Of a stretch of 64,000 nucleotides of DNA, positions 10,550 to 41,061 are shown in pieces. Position 1 is the stretch's first letter. Every line of letters begins with the position of its first letter. Origin of the DNA: Streptomyces yatensis (GTDB lineage Bacteria; Actinomycetota; Actinomycetes; Streptomycetales; Streptomycetaceae); assembly GCF_018069625.1 (NCBI RefSeq), contig NZ_CP072941.1:5704001-5768000 (forward strand), written 5' to 3'. The translations under genes and the position numbers were made by a program. A model generated the notes under the pieces. The model worked only from the letters and a program-made list of their open reading frames with translations. It made no database searches and was not told where the DNA came from.

Positions 10550-10600
10550 GGTGATCTGTCCCTTCACCGGCAGGAACGTGCCGGACGATCCGAGTAAAGG

Positions 10601-10616
10601 AGGGGTCTAGTCCACC
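10601..10616 (-). promoter_or_regulatory. DasR-responsive element (dre)-like operator of msiK
   Basis: The 16-mer AGGGGTCTAGTCCACC matches 13 of 16 positions of the dre consensus as I remember it (AGTGGTCTAGACCACT), centred on CTAG. It lies 52-67 bases upstream of the msiK ATG. It overlaps the inverted repeat TCCACC-GGA-GGTGGA (10611-10625). On the msiK strand a -10-like TATAGC lies further upstream at 10636-10641, which would place the operator just after the transcription start. Confidence 0.6.
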
Positions 10617-10725: not shown

Positions 10726-10798
10726 GCCGACTTAGCTCAGCTGGTAGAGCACCGCTCTTGTAAAGCGAAGGTCGTCGGTTCGAACCCGACAGTCGGCT
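10726..10798 (+). tRNA. tRNA-Thr (anticodon UGU)
   Basis: The sequence folds as a complete cloverleaf. The acceptor arms GCCGACT and AGTCGGC pair fully, the D arm carries AGCTCAGCTGGTAGAGC, and the anticodon loop reads CTTGTAA. The T arm is GTCGG-TTCGAAC-CCGAC, and the discriminator base is T. No CCA is encoded. A -10-like TACACT lies at 10711-10716. No integrase or attachment duplicate is seen next to it. Confidence 0.95.
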
Positions 10799-32889: not shown

Positions 32890-34374
32890 CTACAGCGCCC
32901 GCAGCTGCGCCAGGAACCATGCCTGGGGCGGCAGCGCGGTCGCGGCGGCGGCGAGTCGCTTCGTACGGTCCGCGCGCTCGCCGTCGCTCATGCGCAGCGC
33001 CTCGTCCAGTGCCCGGGCGGTGGCCTCCACGTCGTACGGGTTCACCACCAGCGCGTCGTCGCCCAGCTCGGCGTGGGCCCCCGCCTCCCGTGACAGCACC
33101 AGCGCACATCCCCGCTCGGAGACCACCGGGACCTCCTTGGCCACCAGGTTCATCCCGTCCCGGATGGGGTTGACCAGCGCCACGTCCGCCAGTCGGTAGG
33201 CCGCGAGCGACCGTGCGAAGTCGTCCTTCACATGCAGGGCGACCGGGGTCCAGCCCTCCGTGCCGTACTCGGCGTTGATCTCCTCCGCGATCCGCCGCAC
33301 CCGCTCGGTGTAGTCGCGGTAGACCGCGAGGTCCTGGCGGGAGGGGTAGGCGAAGGCCACGTGCACCACGCGCTCCCGCCACTCGGGGTGGGTCTCCAGC
33401 AGCCGCCGGTAGGCCAGCAGCCCGCGCACGATGTTCTTGGACAGCTCGGTGCGGTCCACCCGGACGATCGACTTCCGGTCCGGCCCGATCTGCGCCCGCA
33501 GACTGGTCAGCCGTTCGTCCACATCCTCCTGCCGCGACCGCTGCCGCAGGAAGTCCGCGTCCGCGCCCAGGCCGTGGACGCCCAGCCGGGTCTCCCGCCC
33601 CTCGAAGCGCACGGCCGTCGCCGCGCCCTCGCCGTTCCCGTCACCGTCACTGTCGCCGTCGCCGTCGCGGACGATCTCCGCGCCCAGCACGGCCGCGCAG
33701 CAGTCGGCGAAGGCACCGGCCCAGCGCTCGGTGAGGAACGCGGCGCGGTCGCCGCCGAGGATGCCGCGCAGCACACCCGCCGCGACGTCGTCCGGCAGCA
33801 GCCGGTAGTAGTCCGGCGGGGCCCAGGGGGTGTGCGAGAAGTGACCGATCCGCAGATCGGGGCGCCGCTCGCGGAGCATCGCGGGCACCAGCGCCAGGTG
33901 GTAGTCCTGCACCAGGACGACGGCCTCGTCCACCGCCTCCTCGGCGAGCGCGTCCGCGAAGGCCGCGTTATACGCCTCGTAGGCCGCCCACTGGTCGGCG
34001 AACTCCGCGTCGAAGACCGGCTCGACCGGGGTCTGGTAGAGCAGATGGTGGATGAACCACAGCACCGAATTGGCGATGCCGTTGTACGCGGCGGCGAAGA
34101 CATCCGGCGCGATGTCGAGCATCCGCACCTGCTGGCCGCCGGTGTCACCGGGGTTCAGATGGCTGTCCCCGGCGCGCCGGGCCGCCTCGCGGTCATCCTC
34201 CCCGAGCGCCGCGCACACCCACACCGCGTTCGCGTCGGGGCCGATGGCGCTGAGGCCGGAGACCAGCCCGCCACCGCCGCGCCGGGCGGTGAGCGAGCCG
34301 TCCTCGCCCAGGGTGTACGAGACCGGACCGCGGTTGGAGGCGACCAGGATCGGAGCGGTGCGCGGAACTGCCAT
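32890..34374 (-). CDS. otsA: trehalose-6-phosphate synthase (GT20), diverged
   Basis: OtsA joins UDP- or GDP-glucose to glucose 6-phosphate. The GT20 hallmarks are ILVASNRGPVSY, the glycine loop GGGGLVSGL, VQDYHLALVPAML, HTPWAPPDYYRLLP, VRVDRTELSKN (donor-phosphate Arg and Lys kept) and NPIRDGMNLVAKE. Several motifs are more diverged than in E. coli OtsA, so donor specificity may differ. A low-complexity loop of Asp/Gly (about residues 237-251, DGDGDSDGDGNGEG) is encoded by a 6-bp repeat. Total length is 494 residues. The gene converges with otsB and is followed upstream by gpgS on the same strand. Confidence 0.88.
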   Translation of the reverse strand: MAVPRTAPILVASNRGPVSYTLGEDGSLTARRGGGGLVSGLSAIGPDANAVWVCAALGEDDREAARRAGDSHLNPGDTGGQQVRMLDIAPDVFAAAYNGIANSVLWFIHHLLYQTPVEPVFDAEFADQWAAYEAYNAAFADALAEEAVDEAVVLVQDYHLALVPAMLRERRPDLRIGHFSHTPWAPPDYYRLLPDDVAAGVLRGILGGDRAAFLTERWAGAFADCCAAVLGAEIVRDGDGDSDGDGNGEGAATAVRFEGRETRLGVHGLGADADFLRQRSRQEDVDERLTSLRAQIGPDRKSIVRVDRTELSKNIVRGLLAYRRLLETHPEWRERVVHVAFAYPSRQDLAVYRDYTERVRRIAEEINAEYGTEGWTPVALHVKDDFARSLAAYRLADVALVNPIRDGMNLVAKEVPVVSERGCALVLSREAGAHAELGDDALVVNPYDVEATARALDEALRMSDGERADRTKRLAAAATALPPQAWFLAQLRAL

Positions 34375-34492: not shown

Positions 34493-35440
34493 TCACGCCG
34501 CGCGCCGCTCCGCGTACTCCGGTATCTCGATCATCGGCGGCCGTTCCTCGGTGTCCACGTCCGTGGTGCGCGGCTCGAAGCCGGTCTCGCCCCGGTCGAA
34601 CTGGGTCAGCCGCGGCCGCACCAAATGGCCCCGGGCCAGCCGCAGCTGCGCGGTGCGGTAGATCGCGGCGGCCATCCGGCCCAGCGCCAGCCCGTCCTGG
34701 TGGCGGTGTTTGCGCACCCCGATGTCCACCTGGCCGAGCGCGTCGAGGCCCACCGTGTGCAGCGCGTCGACCAGCAGCCCCAGCTCGACCCCGTAGCCGA
34801 CCGGGAAGGGCAGCCGCTCCAGCAGCGTGCGGCGGGCCGCGTACTCACCGCCCAGCGGCTGGACGAATCCGGCCAGCTGGGGCCAGTGCAGATTCAGCAG
34901 CGGGCGGGCGACCAGTTCGGTGACCCGTCCGCCCTGGCCCGCCACATCGCCGAGCGGGCGGTCGTACATGCCCTTCACCAGCTGCAGCGCGGGGTCGGTC
35001 AGCAGCGGCCCGACGATCCCGGAGACAAAGCGCGGATCGAATTCCCGCAGGTCGGCGTCGATGAAGCAGATGATGTCGCCGCGCGTGGCCAGCAGGGACC
35101 GCCACAGCACCTCGCCCTTGCCGGGCAGCGCGGGCAGCCGGGGCAGCAGCGAGTCGCGGGGGACGACGGTGGCGCCCGCCGCCGCGGCGACCTCGGCGGT
35201 GCGGTCCGTCGAGCCGGAGTCCAGCACCACCAGCTCGTCCACCAGCGGCGCCGCCTCGCCCATCAGCTCCCGGCGGATGATCGCGGCGATCTCGCCGACC
35301 GTGGCCTCCTCGTTCAGGGCGGGCAGGACCACGCTCAGGGTCGTCGCCGAGCCCCGCTTCGCGTCGAGCAGGCGGTCCAGCGGCCGGTCGTCGGCCGACC
35401 AGGAGCGGTGCTTCAGCCAGTGCTCCACCTCTTCCAGCAC
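34493..35440 (-). CDS. gpgS: glucosyl-3-phosphoglycerate synthase
   Basis: This GT81-type retaining glycosyltransferase makes glucosyl-3-phosphoglycerate, precursor of the osmolyte glucosylglycerate and, in mycobacteria, of methylglucose lipopolysaccharide. Key motifs are LSVVLPALNEEATVGEI, VVLDSGSTDRT, the metal-binding CFIDADLREFDPRF and VKGMYDRP. The acceptor-side segment QPLGGEYAARR is also present. The 315-residue length is normal. Its neighbours otsA and otsB make another glucosyl osmolyte, so this is a compatible-solute locus. No GpgP phosphatase gene is adjacent. Confidence 0.9.
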   Translation of the reverse strand: MLEEVEHWLKHRSWSADDRPLDRLLDAKRGSATTLSVVLPALNEEATVGEIAAIIRRELMGEAAPLVDELVVLDSGSTDRTAEVAAAAGATVVPRDSLLPRLPALPGKGEVLWRSLLATRGDIICFIDADLREFDPRFVSGIVGPLLTDPALQLVKGMYDRPLGDVAGQGGRVTELVARPLLNLHWPQLAGFVQPLGGEYAARRTLLERLPFPVGYGVELGLLVDALHTVGLDALGQVDIGVRKHRHQDGLALGRMAAAIYRTAQLRLARGHLVRPRLTQFDRGETGFEPRTTDVDTEERPPMIEIPEYAERRAA

Positions 35441-35633
35441 CTGTGTCTCTCCCTGCCGTGGTCGCTGTGATCCATCTCGCGCTTCGGACGGCTAGCTCAA
35501 CCATCCGGGCCTTCGGTTACAGTCTTGAACAACGCACGTGACCGTCGTATGTCGGGGTCGACCTCGGTGTTTACCGAGGAAGCCCGTGATGATGCCGTGC
35601 TGACAAACGCCCGGGTCCGCCCGGTGCCATACC
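35441..35633. promoter_or_regulatory. promoter region of gpgS and of the SAM-riboswitch operon
   Basis: On the plus strand TTGAAC (35525-35530) and TATGTC (35548-35553) are spaced by 17 bases and could start the riboswitch transcript. No reading frame of note is present. Confidence 0.4.
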
Positions 35634-35773
35634 GCTCATCCAGAGGGGCAGAGGGAACGGCCCGTTGAAGCCCCGGCAACCCTCCAGCTGATCTCGCATT
35701 CCGCAGCGAGGCTCCCAGCTCGGGAAGGTGCCAATTCCGTCTCGTGGCGAAATGCGTCGCGAGGAAGATGAGG
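35634..35773 (+). ncRNA. SAM-I (S-box) riboswitch
   Basis: The conserved S-box core is readable: CTCATCCAGAGGGG, then GAGGGAACGGCCC, GAAGCCCCGGCAACC, a variable hairpin (35690-35740) and GGTGCCAATTCC. The P1 stem closes CTCATC (35635-35640) with GATGAG (35767-35772). It binds S-adenosylmethionine and shuts down downstream expression. The P1 3' strand runs directly into the ribosome binding site AGGAGAAAGG of the next gene, with the ATG at 35793. The control is therefore probably on translation rather than by a terminator, of which I see none. Confidence 0.93.
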
Positions 35774-35792
35774 AGAAAGGGCCTCGCCATCC

Positions 35793-37103
35793 ATGGCTGT
35801 GCAGTCAGTAGAAAGCTCAACTGTTTCCTCCGCGTCCTCCGCCTCCGACGCCTCCGGTGCCTTCGGTCCCGCCATCGCATTGTCCTGCCGGGAGTGCGGT
35901 GAGCGGTTCGATCTGGGCCCGATCTTCGCGTGTGAGGTCTGTTTCGGGCCGCTCGAGGTCGCGTACGAGCTGCCGGCCGGCGACCCGGAGGGGCTGCGCC
36001 GGCGGATCGAGGCCGGTCCGAACAGCATCTGGCGCTATGCCCCGCTGCTGCCCGTCCCGGCGGACGTGGCGGACCTGCCCAGCCTGCACCCGGGCTTCAC
36101 CCAGCTGGTCAAGGCCGACAACCTCGCCCGTGAGCTCGGCGTCACCGGTGAGCTGCACATCAAGGACGACTCCGGCAACCCGACCCACTCCTTCAAGGAC
36201 CGGGTCGTCGCCATCGCCGTCCAGGCCGCCCGCACCTTCGGCTTCACCACCCTCTCCTGCTCCTCCACCGGCAACCTCGCCGGCGCGGTCGGTGCCGCGG
36301 CCGCCCGGGCGGGCTTCCGCTCCTGCGTCTTCATCCCGCACGACCTGGAGGCGGGCAAGGTCGTCATGGCCGCGGTCTACGGCGGTGAGCTGGTCGGCAT
36401 CGAGGGCACCTACGACGACGTCAACCGCTTCTGCAGCGAGCTGATCGGCGACCCGGTCGGCGAGGGCTGGGGCTTCGTCAACGTCAATCTGCGGCCGTAC
36501 TACGGCGAGGGCTCCAAGACCCTGGCCTACGAGATCTGCGAGCAGCTCGGCTGGCGGCTGCCGGACCAGATCGTCATCCCGATCGCCTCCGGCTCCCAGC
36601 TCACCAAGATCGACAAGGGGCTGAAGGAGCTGATCGCGATCGGGCTGGTCGAGGACAAGCCCTACAAGATCTTCGGCGCCCAGGCCGAGGGCTGCTCCCC
36701 GGTCTCCGCCGCCTTCAAGGCCGGCCATGACGTCGTGCGGCCGCAGAAGCCGCAGACCATCGCCAAGTCACTGGCCATCGGCAACCCCGCGGACGGCCCG
36801 TACGTCCTGGACATCGCCCGCCGCACGGGCGGCGCGGTGGAGGACGTGAACGACGAGCAGATCGTCGACGCGATCAAGCTGCTCGCCCGCACCGAGGGGA
36901 TCTTCGCGGAGACCGCGGGCGGGGTGACCGTCGGCGTGACCAAGAAGCTGATCGAGGACGGTCTGCTCGACCCGTCCCTGACGACCGTCGTGCTCAACAC
37001 CGGCGACGGCCTCAAGACCCTCGACGCGGTGGCCCCCACCACGGGTCCCTCCGCCATCATCCGCCCCACCCTTGACTCGTTCCGAGAGGCTGGTCTCGCA
37101 TGA
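35793..37103 (+). CDS. thrC: threonine synthase-like PLP enzyme under a SAM riboswitch (probable homocysteine synthase, MetM type)
   Basis: By similarity this is threonine synthase: PLP Lys135 in NPTHSFKDR, the phosphate loop SCSSTGNLAGAVGAAAARAG, and the O-phosphohomoserine-type fold, 436 residues. Residues 31-50 form a zinc-ribbon (CRECG ... CEVC) as in class II archaeal-like enzymes. Two facts argue for another role: a SAM-I riboswitch precedes it, which regulates sulfur amino acid genes, and its stop overlaps the start of a ThiS/MoaD-like sulfur carrier (ATGA). I infer that it replaces the phosphate of O-phosphohomoserine with sulfur from the carrier thiocarboxylate, giving homocysteine. 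I recall a reported Streptomyces route of this kind (MetM/MetO) but cannot check it. True threonine synthase is the fallback. Confidence 0.85.
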   Translation: MAVQSVESSTVSSASSASDASGAFGPAIALSCRECGERFDLGPIFACEVCFGPLEVAYELPAGDPEGLRRRIEAGPNSIWRYAPLLPVPADVADLPSLHPGFTQLVKADNLARELGVTGELHIKDDSGNPTHSFKDRVVAIAVQAARTFGFTTLSCSSTGNLAGAVGAAAARAGFRSCVFIPHDLEAGKVVMAAVYGGELVGIEGTYDDVNRFCSELIGDPVGEGWGFVNVNLRPYYGEGSKTLAYEICEQLGWRLPDQIVIPIASGSQLTKIDKGLKELIAIGLVEDKPYKIFGAQAEGCSPVSAAFKAGHDVVRPQKPQTIAKSLAIGNPADGPYVLDIARRTGGAVEDVNDEQIVDAIKLLARTEGIFAETAGGVTVGVTKKLIEDGLLDPSLTTVVLNTGDGLKTLDAVAPTTGPSAIIRPTLDSFREAGLA

Positions 37104-37378
37104 GCGTCAACGTCCGAATCCCGACCATCCTGCGCACGTACACCGCCGGTCAGGCCGAGGTTCCCGCCGAGGGTGCGACCCTCGCCGAGGTCCTGGCGGA
37201 TCTGGAGAAGAACCACCAGGGCATCGCGGCCCGCGTGCTGGACGACACCGGCAAGCTCCGCCGCTTCGTCAACGTCTACGTCAACGACGACGACGTCCGC
37301 TTCGCCGACGGCCTGGCCACGGCGACCCCGGACGGTGCCGGGATCTCGATCATCCCGGCGGTCGCGGGCGGCTGCTGA
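37100..37378 (+). CDS. ThiS/MoaD-family sulfur carrier protein ending Gly-Gly-Cys
   Basis: This 92-residue ubiquitin-like (beta-grasp) protein resembles CysO/MoaD: SVNVRIPTILRTYTAGQAEV, LAEVLADLEKNHQGIAARV and VNVYVNDDDVRFADGLAT. The tail is IIPAVAGGC. In this family the C-terminal Gly-Gly is adenylated and converted to a thiocarboxylate that donates sulfur. Here one extra Cys follows, so a protease of the JAMM/Mec type must first remove it. The gene starts within the stop of the threonine-synthase-like gene (ATGA) and shares its SAM riboswitch. It is probably the sulfur donor for that enzyme; a CysO-like role in cysteine synthesis is the alternative. Confidence 0.88.
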   Translation: MSVNVRIPTILRTYTAGQAEVPAEGATLAEVLADLEKNHQGIAARVLDDTGKLRRFVNVYVNDDDVRFADGLATATPDGAGISIIPAVAGGC

Positions 37379-37787: not shown

Positions 37788-37994
37788 ATGGCTCAGGGCA
37801 CCGTCAAGTGGTTCAACGCGGAGAAGGGGTACGGCTTCATCGCGGTCGACGGTGGTGCGGACGTGTTCGTCCACTACAGCGCGATCCAGATGGACGGGTA
37901 CCGCACCCTCGAGGAAGGCCAGCGGGTCGAGTTCGAGATCTCGCAGGGTCAGAAGGGCCCGCAGGCCGACATGGTCCGCGTGGCCGTAGGCTGA
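37788..37994 (+). CDS. cold-shock protein, CspA family
   Basis: The 68-residue product is a single cold-shock (OB-fold) domain. The RNA-binding motifs RNP1 KGYGFIAV and RNP2 DVFVHYSAI are intact, with [15 protein letters not shown] at the N-terminus. Such proteins melt RNA secondary structure and act as RNA chaperones. The ATG at 37788 has GGGGAGTTAGGA upstream. It is monocistronic, with terminators on both sides. Confidence 0.95.
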
Positions 37995-38224: not shown

Positions 38225-39958
<1,734 letters not shown>

Positions 39959-40089: not shown

Positions 40090-41061
40090 TTACCGCTCAG
40101 CCGCATCGAGGGCGGCGCGCAGATGGCCGTGTGCCTCGGCGAGCAGCTTCTCGGCGGTCGGGGCGTCCACCTCGCCCAGGATGGTGAGGATCGCGTTCTT
40201 CACCTCGCCGTCCGTGGCCGCCAGCGCGCTCTCGATCCGCTGGTCGGAGGCGCCGGTCGCCAGGAAGACGATCCTCCGCGAGCGGGCGCGCAGCTTGTCG
40301 TTGGAGGCGCGCACATCGACCATCAGATTTCCGAAGGTCTTGCCCAGCCGGATCATGGTGATGGTCGAGATCATGTTGAGCACCAGCTTCTGAGCCGTGC
40401 CCGCCTTCAGCCGGGTCGAGCCGGTGAGCAGCTCCGGTCCCACGACGATCTCGATGCCGTGGTCGGCCGCGGCGGCGAGCGCCGAGCCGGCGTTGCAGGA
40501 CAGCCCGACGGTGAGCGCGCCGAGCCGTCGGCCGTGTTCGACCGCGCCCACGGCGTACGGGGTGCGGCCGGAGGCCGAGACGCCGACCACCGTGTCGTCG
40601 GGGCCGACCCCGAGCAGGTCGAGGTCCCGGGCGGCCAGTTCCGCGCTGTCCTCCGCGCCCTCGACCGAGGTCACCACGGCGTCCGGGCCGCCCGCGATCA
40701 CCCCGACGACCTGCTCGGGCCGGGTGTTGAAGGTGGGCGGGCATTCGCTCGCGTCGAGCACCCCGAGCCGTCCGGCGGTGCCCGCGCCCGTATAGAGGAG
40801 ACGGCCGCCGCGGGACATCCGCGCGGCGATGGCGTCGATGGCGGCGGCGATGCGGGGGAGCTGGAGGGCGACGGCGGTGGGGACGCCGGCGTCCTCCGCG
40901 TTCATGATCCGGGCGATCTCGAGGGTTTCCAGCCGGTCGATCTCGGCGAGTTCGGGGCGGAACGCCTCGGTGGTCAGGGTGTCGAGCTGGGCGCGGAGCC
41001 GGGTGGAGTCCTGGTCGGCCGCGGAGTCGGTGGGGTCGGCTGCGAAGTCGGCGGAAGTCAT
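40090..41061 (-). CDS. murQ: N-acetylmuramic acid 6-phosphate etherase
   Basis: MurQ cleaves the lactyl ether of MurNAc-6-phosphate to give GlcNAc-6-phosphate, feeding peptidoglycan recycling into NagA. The SIS-fold signatures are GRLLYTGAGTAGRLGVLDASECPPTF, VSASGRTPYAVGAVEHGR and GSTRLKAGTAQKLVLNMIST, all diagnostic. The 323-residue length is normal. It lies 97 bases downstream of an RpiR-type regulator on the same strand. The product is the substrate of NagA, encoded 12 kb away. Confidence 0.95.
   Translation of the reverse strand: MTSADFAADPTDSAADQDSTRLRAQLDTLTTEAFRPELAEIDRLETLEIARIMNAEDAGVPTAVALQLPRIAAAIDAIAARMSRGGRLLYTGAGTAGRLGVLDASECPPTFNTRPEQVVGVIAGGPDAVVTSVEGAEDSAELAARDLDLLGVGPDDTVVGVSASGRTPYAVGAVEHGRRLGALTVGLSCNAGSALAAAADHGIEIVVGPELLTGSTRLKAGTAQKLVLNMISTITMIRLGKTFGNLMVDVRASNDKLRARSRRIVFLATGASDQRIESALAATDGEVKNAILTILGEVDAPTAEKLLAEAHGHLRAALDAAER

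Follow-up and report, generated by a model that had tools for sequence, protein, structure and literature searches.

A SAM-I riboswitch-associated metM–metO operon, predicted to make homocysteine from O-phosphohomoserine, in Streptomyces yatensis

Organisation of the metM–metO locus

The genome of Streptomyces yatensis is a single contig of 10.36 Mb. We analysed a stretch of 64,000 nucleotides from it, hereafter called the window. A predicted SAM-I (S-box) riboswitch aptamer lies on the forward strand at positions 35633–35774. When the whole 64 kb was scanned with Rfam models, the aptamer matched RF00162 with 80.2 bits (E 2.9e-17; gathering score 44.4). The prediction is based on this match, which is complete (model positions 1–108) and exceeds the gathering score. 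No RF00162 match was reported elsewhere in the 10.36 Mb genome, in a scan that scored 150 of 626 first-look candidates. The riboswitch is followed, after a gap of 18 nt, by a gene with an ATG start (35793–37103, +). The product is a 436 residue enzyme, here called MetM, which matches the PALP (221 bits) and TIGR00260 models and was aligned with 109 relatives. The stop of metM and the start of metO (37100–37378, +) overlap in the sequence ATGA. MetO is a ThiS/MoaD-type sulfur carrier of 92 residues, with a PF02597 (ThiS) score of 59.4 bits and the C-terminus IIPAVAGGC. A first-pass annotation had described a SAM-I riboswitch directly before a threonine-synthase-like gene that overlaps a carrier gene. 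Both descriptions hold, and the coordinates given there were correct to one base.

The arrangement is conserved among close relatives. Our named loci are the best 80 of 570 confirmed relatives, found with a single-protein query that reaches close relatives only. They come from Streptomyces, Streptantibioticus and Actinacidiphila, and their enzymes are 84–98% identical to the window enzyme. RF00162 was found upstream of the enzyme in all 80, and the carrier directly after the enzyme in 79; the exception (L155) ends 76 bases past the enzyme match. Hence, the combination of riboswitch and carrier is not due to chance. Among the matches listed, the nearest named protein relatives are from S. malaysiensis, S. 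violaceusniger and their kin. One protein (P0126) with 98% identity to the window enzyme carries the name Stenotrophomonas sp. NPDC087984; this looks like a mislabelled genome.

The aptamer runs into a Shine-Dalgarno-like sequence

The 3′ strand of P1, GATGAG (35767–35772), continues into the Shine-Dalgarno-like sequence GAGGAGAAAGGG, and the two together span 35767–35781 of the forward strand. GAGGAGAAAGGG lies 11–17 nt before the metM ATG. There are no runs of four or more T residues between positions 35633 and 35900. In 75 of the 80 named loci, GATGAGGA occurs in the 60 nt that precede the aligned start, most commonly at a distance of 17 nt. Five loci have no GATGAGGA in that span. According to the Rfam coordinates, the aptamer extends beyond the aligned start in L123, L141 and L163, and ends around 100 or more bases before it in L098 and L156. 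The aligned start may differ from the true one in these cases. We infer that control is likely translational, by means of a covered ribosome-binding site.

A second expression-platform hairpin, formed by the 3′ arm of P4 and a CCTCGC before the start, was also considered. It was dropped because the pairing, inspected by eye, was broken in several of 20 upstream sequences.

MetM departs from threonine synthase at five positions

The window enzyme scores 270.4 bits with the NCBIfam threonine synthase model TIGR00260, for which the cut-off is 167.1, and threonine synthase is the usual name of its named orthologs among the matches listed. We mapped the enzyme onto Thermus ThrC (chain 1uim) through a HMMER alignment. 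We also aligned it with the ThrC of the same genome and with 109 relatives, 87 of them of Streptomyces type and 22 of other kinds. By alignment, the Schiff-base lysine K135 and the STGN sequence are retained in MetM. Conversely, Thermus residues T88, N157, R160, Q164 and N188, which we take to touch substrate or cofactor, are replaced by L162, R234, Y237, S241 and S266, both in the window enzyme and in all 109 relatives. The window enzyme therefore lacks the ThrC-typical residue at each of these positions. The canonical letters are kept in all five ThrC sequences that make up the comparison set, namely the genome's own enzyme and the four PDB chains with printed alignments (2zsj, 6cgq, 1uim and 2d1f). 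Two N-terminal CxxC pairs (C32, C35, C47 and C50) are present in every one of the 109 MetM relatives and absent from the genome's own ThrC. Cys301 is likewise found in all 109.

The five-residue signature also holds in those distant loci (7 of the 22) that have no adjacent carrier. Hence, as judged against five ThrC sequences, it marks a predicted subfamily and is not proof of an activity. A literature search on the ThrC active site found no title on ThrC structure among the papers returned.

Threonine and homocysteine genes elsewhere in the genome

Searching the whole genome revealed two weaker relatives, one at 3.755 Mb with 36% identity and the other at 7.389 Mb with 33%. The former is flanked by hom and thrB, all three genes being on one strand, in a canonical hom–thrC–thrB cluster (L004; 9264–10586, 8086–9204 and 6771–7898). 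All three products exceed the cut-offs of their models: homoserine dehydrogenase (553 bits; cut-off 205), TIGR00260 threonine synthase (312.6; cut-off 167.1) and TIGR00191 homoserine kinase (215.4; cut-off 168.25). The first-pass annotation had staked its reading beforehand on the window enzyme not being the sole thrC of the genome, and it is not. The relative at 7.389 Mb is a third threonine-synthase-like PLP protein (L005, 6495–7793, −), which falls under the threonine synthase cut-offs shown.

For homoserine acetyltransferase (MetX; TIGR01392), this genome yielded nothing but two fragmentary matches (28 and 21 bits), and there was no match to the succinyltransferase family of MetA (PF04204). 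The genome encodes four strong Cys_Met_Meta_PP (PF01053) enzymes. L006 scores 679 bits with a cystathionine γ-synthase model (cut-off 513), and an Rfam scan found no SAM riboswitch within its 4.1 kb locus. L009 exceeds a cystathionine γ-lyase cut-off. For L007 and L008, 25 cut-offs each were shown, and neither protein reaches any of them.

Distribution of MetM, its carrier and MetX

We drew an even sample of 197 genomes across the phylum, and counted a match of E 1e-80 or better as a MetM relative. Such a relative occurs in 72 genomes, 64 of them from other genera. A listed carrier match lies on the same strand, within 600 bases downstream, in 53 of the 72. The other 19 were rechecked. Seven have no carrier in the locus and 11 have none at E 0.01 in the roughly 850–950 bases downstream; in G013 the contig ends too near metM to show a downstream carrier. 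Thus, at least 18 of the 72 MetM genomes are without an adjacent carrier. All 19 genomes have a carrier match somewhere (E 0.001 or better), so unpaired does not mean carrier-less. RF00162 was scored at the MetM loci of the 29 best-scoring of the other 71 genomes. It was found in 7 of 7 loci from the same genus and 10 of 22 from other genera. Hence, the riboswitch accompanies the pair beyond Streptomyces, if not always.

MetX was scored in the same sample at a threshold of E 1e-40, because the curated 500-bit cut-off was reached by no sample or control genome. Both MetM and MetX are found in 17 genomes, MetM only in 55, MetX only in 56 and neither in 69. The two enzymes tend mildly to stand in for one another, without being mutually exclusive (Fisher p 0.0035, or 0.0024 without the eight same-genus genomes, with kinship ignored in both). 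Among those eight genomes, three have a full-length TIGR01392 match; S. yatensis is one of the five that do not.

The C-terminal tail of MetO and its possible maturation

The best NCBIfam model for MetO is SAMP1, at a score slightly below the cut-off (57.3 of 60). The nearest solved relative is 3dwg_C (E 1e-29), listed as 9.5 kDa culture filtrate antigen cfp10A, which we take to be mycobacterial CysO. The S. yatensis protein ends in Gly-Gly-Cys. The 120 best listed database relatives comprise 100 ending in GGC, 18 in GG, one in GGA and one with a long tail. For the 80 named loci, the figures are 43 GGC, 35 GG, one GGAV and one locus without a carrier. On the MetM tree, the tail state changed at least 13 times (87 rows; 45 GGC, 41 GG and one not counted). 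Paired carriers from other genera in the phylum sample number 45; 27 end in plain GG and 18 have tails, from a single residue up to more than ten. A literature search on tailed carriers brought up no title on such carriers among the papers found.

Some capped Gly-Gly carriers, such as Wolinella HcyS and Pseudomonas QbsE, are trimmed by a JAMM-type protease. The S. yatensis genome has a single JAMM protease match (PF14464), whose neighbours are a cysteine synthase (347.3 bits; cut-off 344.15) and a CysO-type carrier. This JAMM–cysO–cysM trio forms a locus of its own (L017), separate from metM–metO. Its carrier (2213–2491, +) ends in Gly-Gly-Met-Val and not in Gly-Gly. The genome also encodes a MoeZ-type E1 (754 bits; cut-off 647). 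We expect the MetO tail to require removal, and the JAMM protease encoded next to cysO–cysM may be the enzyme that does this.

Across the phylum sample, PF14464 exceeds its cut-off in 71 of 72 MetM-bearing genomes and in 53 of the 125 others (Fisher p 5.8e-18, kinship ignored). JAMM was rejected as a marker of tailed carriers; among the paired carriers of other genera, a match over the cut-off accompanies 27 of 27 with plain GG and 17 of 18 with a tail. In G010, a genome that is 94% complete, the carrier has a GGAG tail and the JAMM match is sub-threshold only, which speaks against a strict rule linking tail and JAMM. The protease may be present for CysO alone.

A wider model, to which we give slightly less than an even chance of being right, joins these observations. 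MetO would often be masked by a capped Gly-Gly, and the Gly-Gly-Cys seen here would mimic a CysO–cysteine adduct. The sole JAMM protease, Mec, would mature both MetO and CysO, so that a single E1 (MoeZ) and a single trimming enzyme would serve the synthesis of both cysteine and homocysteine. In the same model, the residues Arg234, Tyr237, Ser241, Ser266 and Leu162 would mark the change from threonine synthase to sulfur-transfer enzyme. Through the carrier tail, a connection between the synthesis of cysteine and that of methionine can be put to the test.

A probable route to homocysteine

Taken together, the pairing of enzyme with riboswitch and carrier, the second thrC, the failure to find MetX or MetA in this genome, the departures from ThrC and the tendency of MetM to replace MetX support one reading. 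The gene pair is very probably the Streptomyces metM–metO operon, making homocysteine from O-phosphohomoserine. The first-pass annotation had proposed exactly such a route, with sulfur from a carrier thiocarboxylate. Its proposal gains support from the second thrC, from the MetX and MetA searches, from the presence of MoeZ and JAMM proteins and from the literature.

In the proposed route, Hom and ThrB would make O-phosphohomoserine for threonine, and MetM would draw on that pool. Using PLP chemistry, MetM would replace the phosphate of O-phosphohomoserine with sulfur from thiocarboxylated MetO to give homocysteine. MoeZ would adenylate and sulfurate the C-terminal glycine of MetO. For MetO with extra residues, such as the Gly-Gly-Cys protein of S. 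yatensis, a protease would first have to expose Gly-Gly. High SAM would close the riboswitch and lower translation of both metM and metO. The 2024 study by Hasebe and co-workers reportedly identified thiocarboxylated MetO as the sulfur donor.

The MetM/MetO system is already known, and is found here in another species. The pathway that the first-pass annotation could only recall is real: an article in mSystems (PMC12172450, 2025) credits MetM to a 2024 paper by Hasebe, Adachi, Maruyama and Hamano (doi 10.1128/aem.01247-24). In the excerpts of this article used here, Streptomyces MetM is a homocysteine synthase that converts O-phosphohomoserine to homocysteine, and MetM homologs occur among cyanobacteria. 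According to the same excerpts, metM of Streptomyces albulus is preceded by a SAM riboswitch, the species has a metO gene, and MetM prevents methionine auxotrophy there (PMC12172450). The S. yatensis locus resembles that of S. albulus, as described in these excerpts, in the threonine-synthase-like enzyme, the adjoining metO, the upstream SAM riboswitch and the genus; the species differs. The excerpts (PMC12172450) do not mention substitutions at ThrC positions, a P1 strand that runs into the ribosome-binding site, or the MetO tail, and the primary paper may discuss the tail and the signature. Neither of these two is put forward here as new to the literature. A literature search around the pathway revealed no apparent second paper that discusses MetM.

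Other carrier-dependent systems share parts of this arrangement. CysO–CysM–Mec of Mycobacterium has in common with it the closest solved relative of MetO (3dwg_C, presumably CysO) and MoeZ-type activation, and S. yatensis has its own JAMM–cysO–cysM locus. However, CysM makes cysteine there, whereas MetM would make homocysteine here, and metO is not encoded with cysM and mec. The Wolinella HcyS route reportedly also uses carrier-borne sulfur for homocysteine, and the carrier C-terminus is said to be trimmed by a metalloprotease. Unlike the S. yatensis system, it is said to employ a MetY enzyme of the O-acetylhomoserine type and no threonine synthase relative. ThrC itself is, like MetM, a PALP-family PLP enzyme that exceeds the TIGR00260 cut-off and would be expected to use the same substrate. 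It differs from MetM, which has the N-terminal CxxC pairs, the five substituted positions, SAM control and the carrier neighbour.

Several findings count against the metM–metO reading. The enzyme passes a curated threonine synthase cut-off, MetX is also found in three of eight same-genus genomes and 17 of 72 MetM-bearing genomes, at least 18 of these 72 lack an adjacent carrier, and L006 provides a cystathionine γ-synthase-type enzyme in this genome. In addition, a Microcystis homolog, which shares 51.6% identity with S. albulus MetM and has a metO-like gene beside it, converted O-phosphohomoserine to threonine in vitro and caused no rise in methionine when induced, according to the excerpts of PMC12172450.

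The MetM genomes without a carrier gene directly downstream would suit an enzyme that uses O-phosphohomoserine and free sulfide in the cell, with MetO dispensable or only stimulatory. Sulfide supplied to the Microcystis enzyme gave an unidentified peak (PMC12172450, excerpts). Conversely, metM and metO overlap in S. yatensis, their pairing is near-universal in the 80 named loci, and all 19 unpaired genomes retain a carrier match somewhere. We consider dependence on free sulfide improbable.

The Microcystis activity in vitro (PMC12172450, excerpts), the TIGR00260 score of 270.4 bits over 167.1 and the names of the listed orthologs would agree with a second threonine synthase, whose carrier serves thiolation or molybdopterin. 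Yet a canonical thrC already accompanies hom and thrB, and control by SAM would have no obvious logic for threonine. Moreover, the five ThrC positions, presumably ligand-contacting, are replaced in 109 of 109 relatives, and a second threonine synthase is very unlikely. That a plant-like cystathionine γ-synthase, L006, makes homocysteine from O-phosphohomoserine and leaves the operon a side role is barely credible, since its high model score and the failure to find an acyl-homoserine source (MetX and MetA models) in the genome are set against the only reported SAM riboswitch, which is at metM–metO and not in the L006 locus, and actinobacterial enzymes of the L006 type often work as γ-lyases.

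The metM–metO reading amounts to a genome-level confirmation of a recently found homocysteine route. It also suggests that MetM is the true identity of many Streptomyces genes annotated as threonine synthase, which neither the curated model nor the names of the listed orthologs yet reflect. The active-site signature would let annotators separate MetM from ThrC.

Neighbouring features in the window

Divergent from the metM operon is a gene for glucosyl-3-phosphoglycerate synthase (34493–35440, −; NF010496, 428 bits, cut-off 262). It adjoins a gene for a GT20 enzyme of the trehalose-phosphate-synthase type (32890–34374, −), which is below the OtsA cut-off (313 of 565). The genes after metO encode a cold-shock protein (37788–37994, +), GroEL (38315–39958, +) and N-acetylmuramic acid 6-phosphate etherase (40090–41061, −). 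Elsewhere in the window, an msiK RNA motif (RF01747, 52 bits; 10552–10609, −) lies near a tRNA-Thr (TGT) gene on the opposite strand (10726–10798, +).
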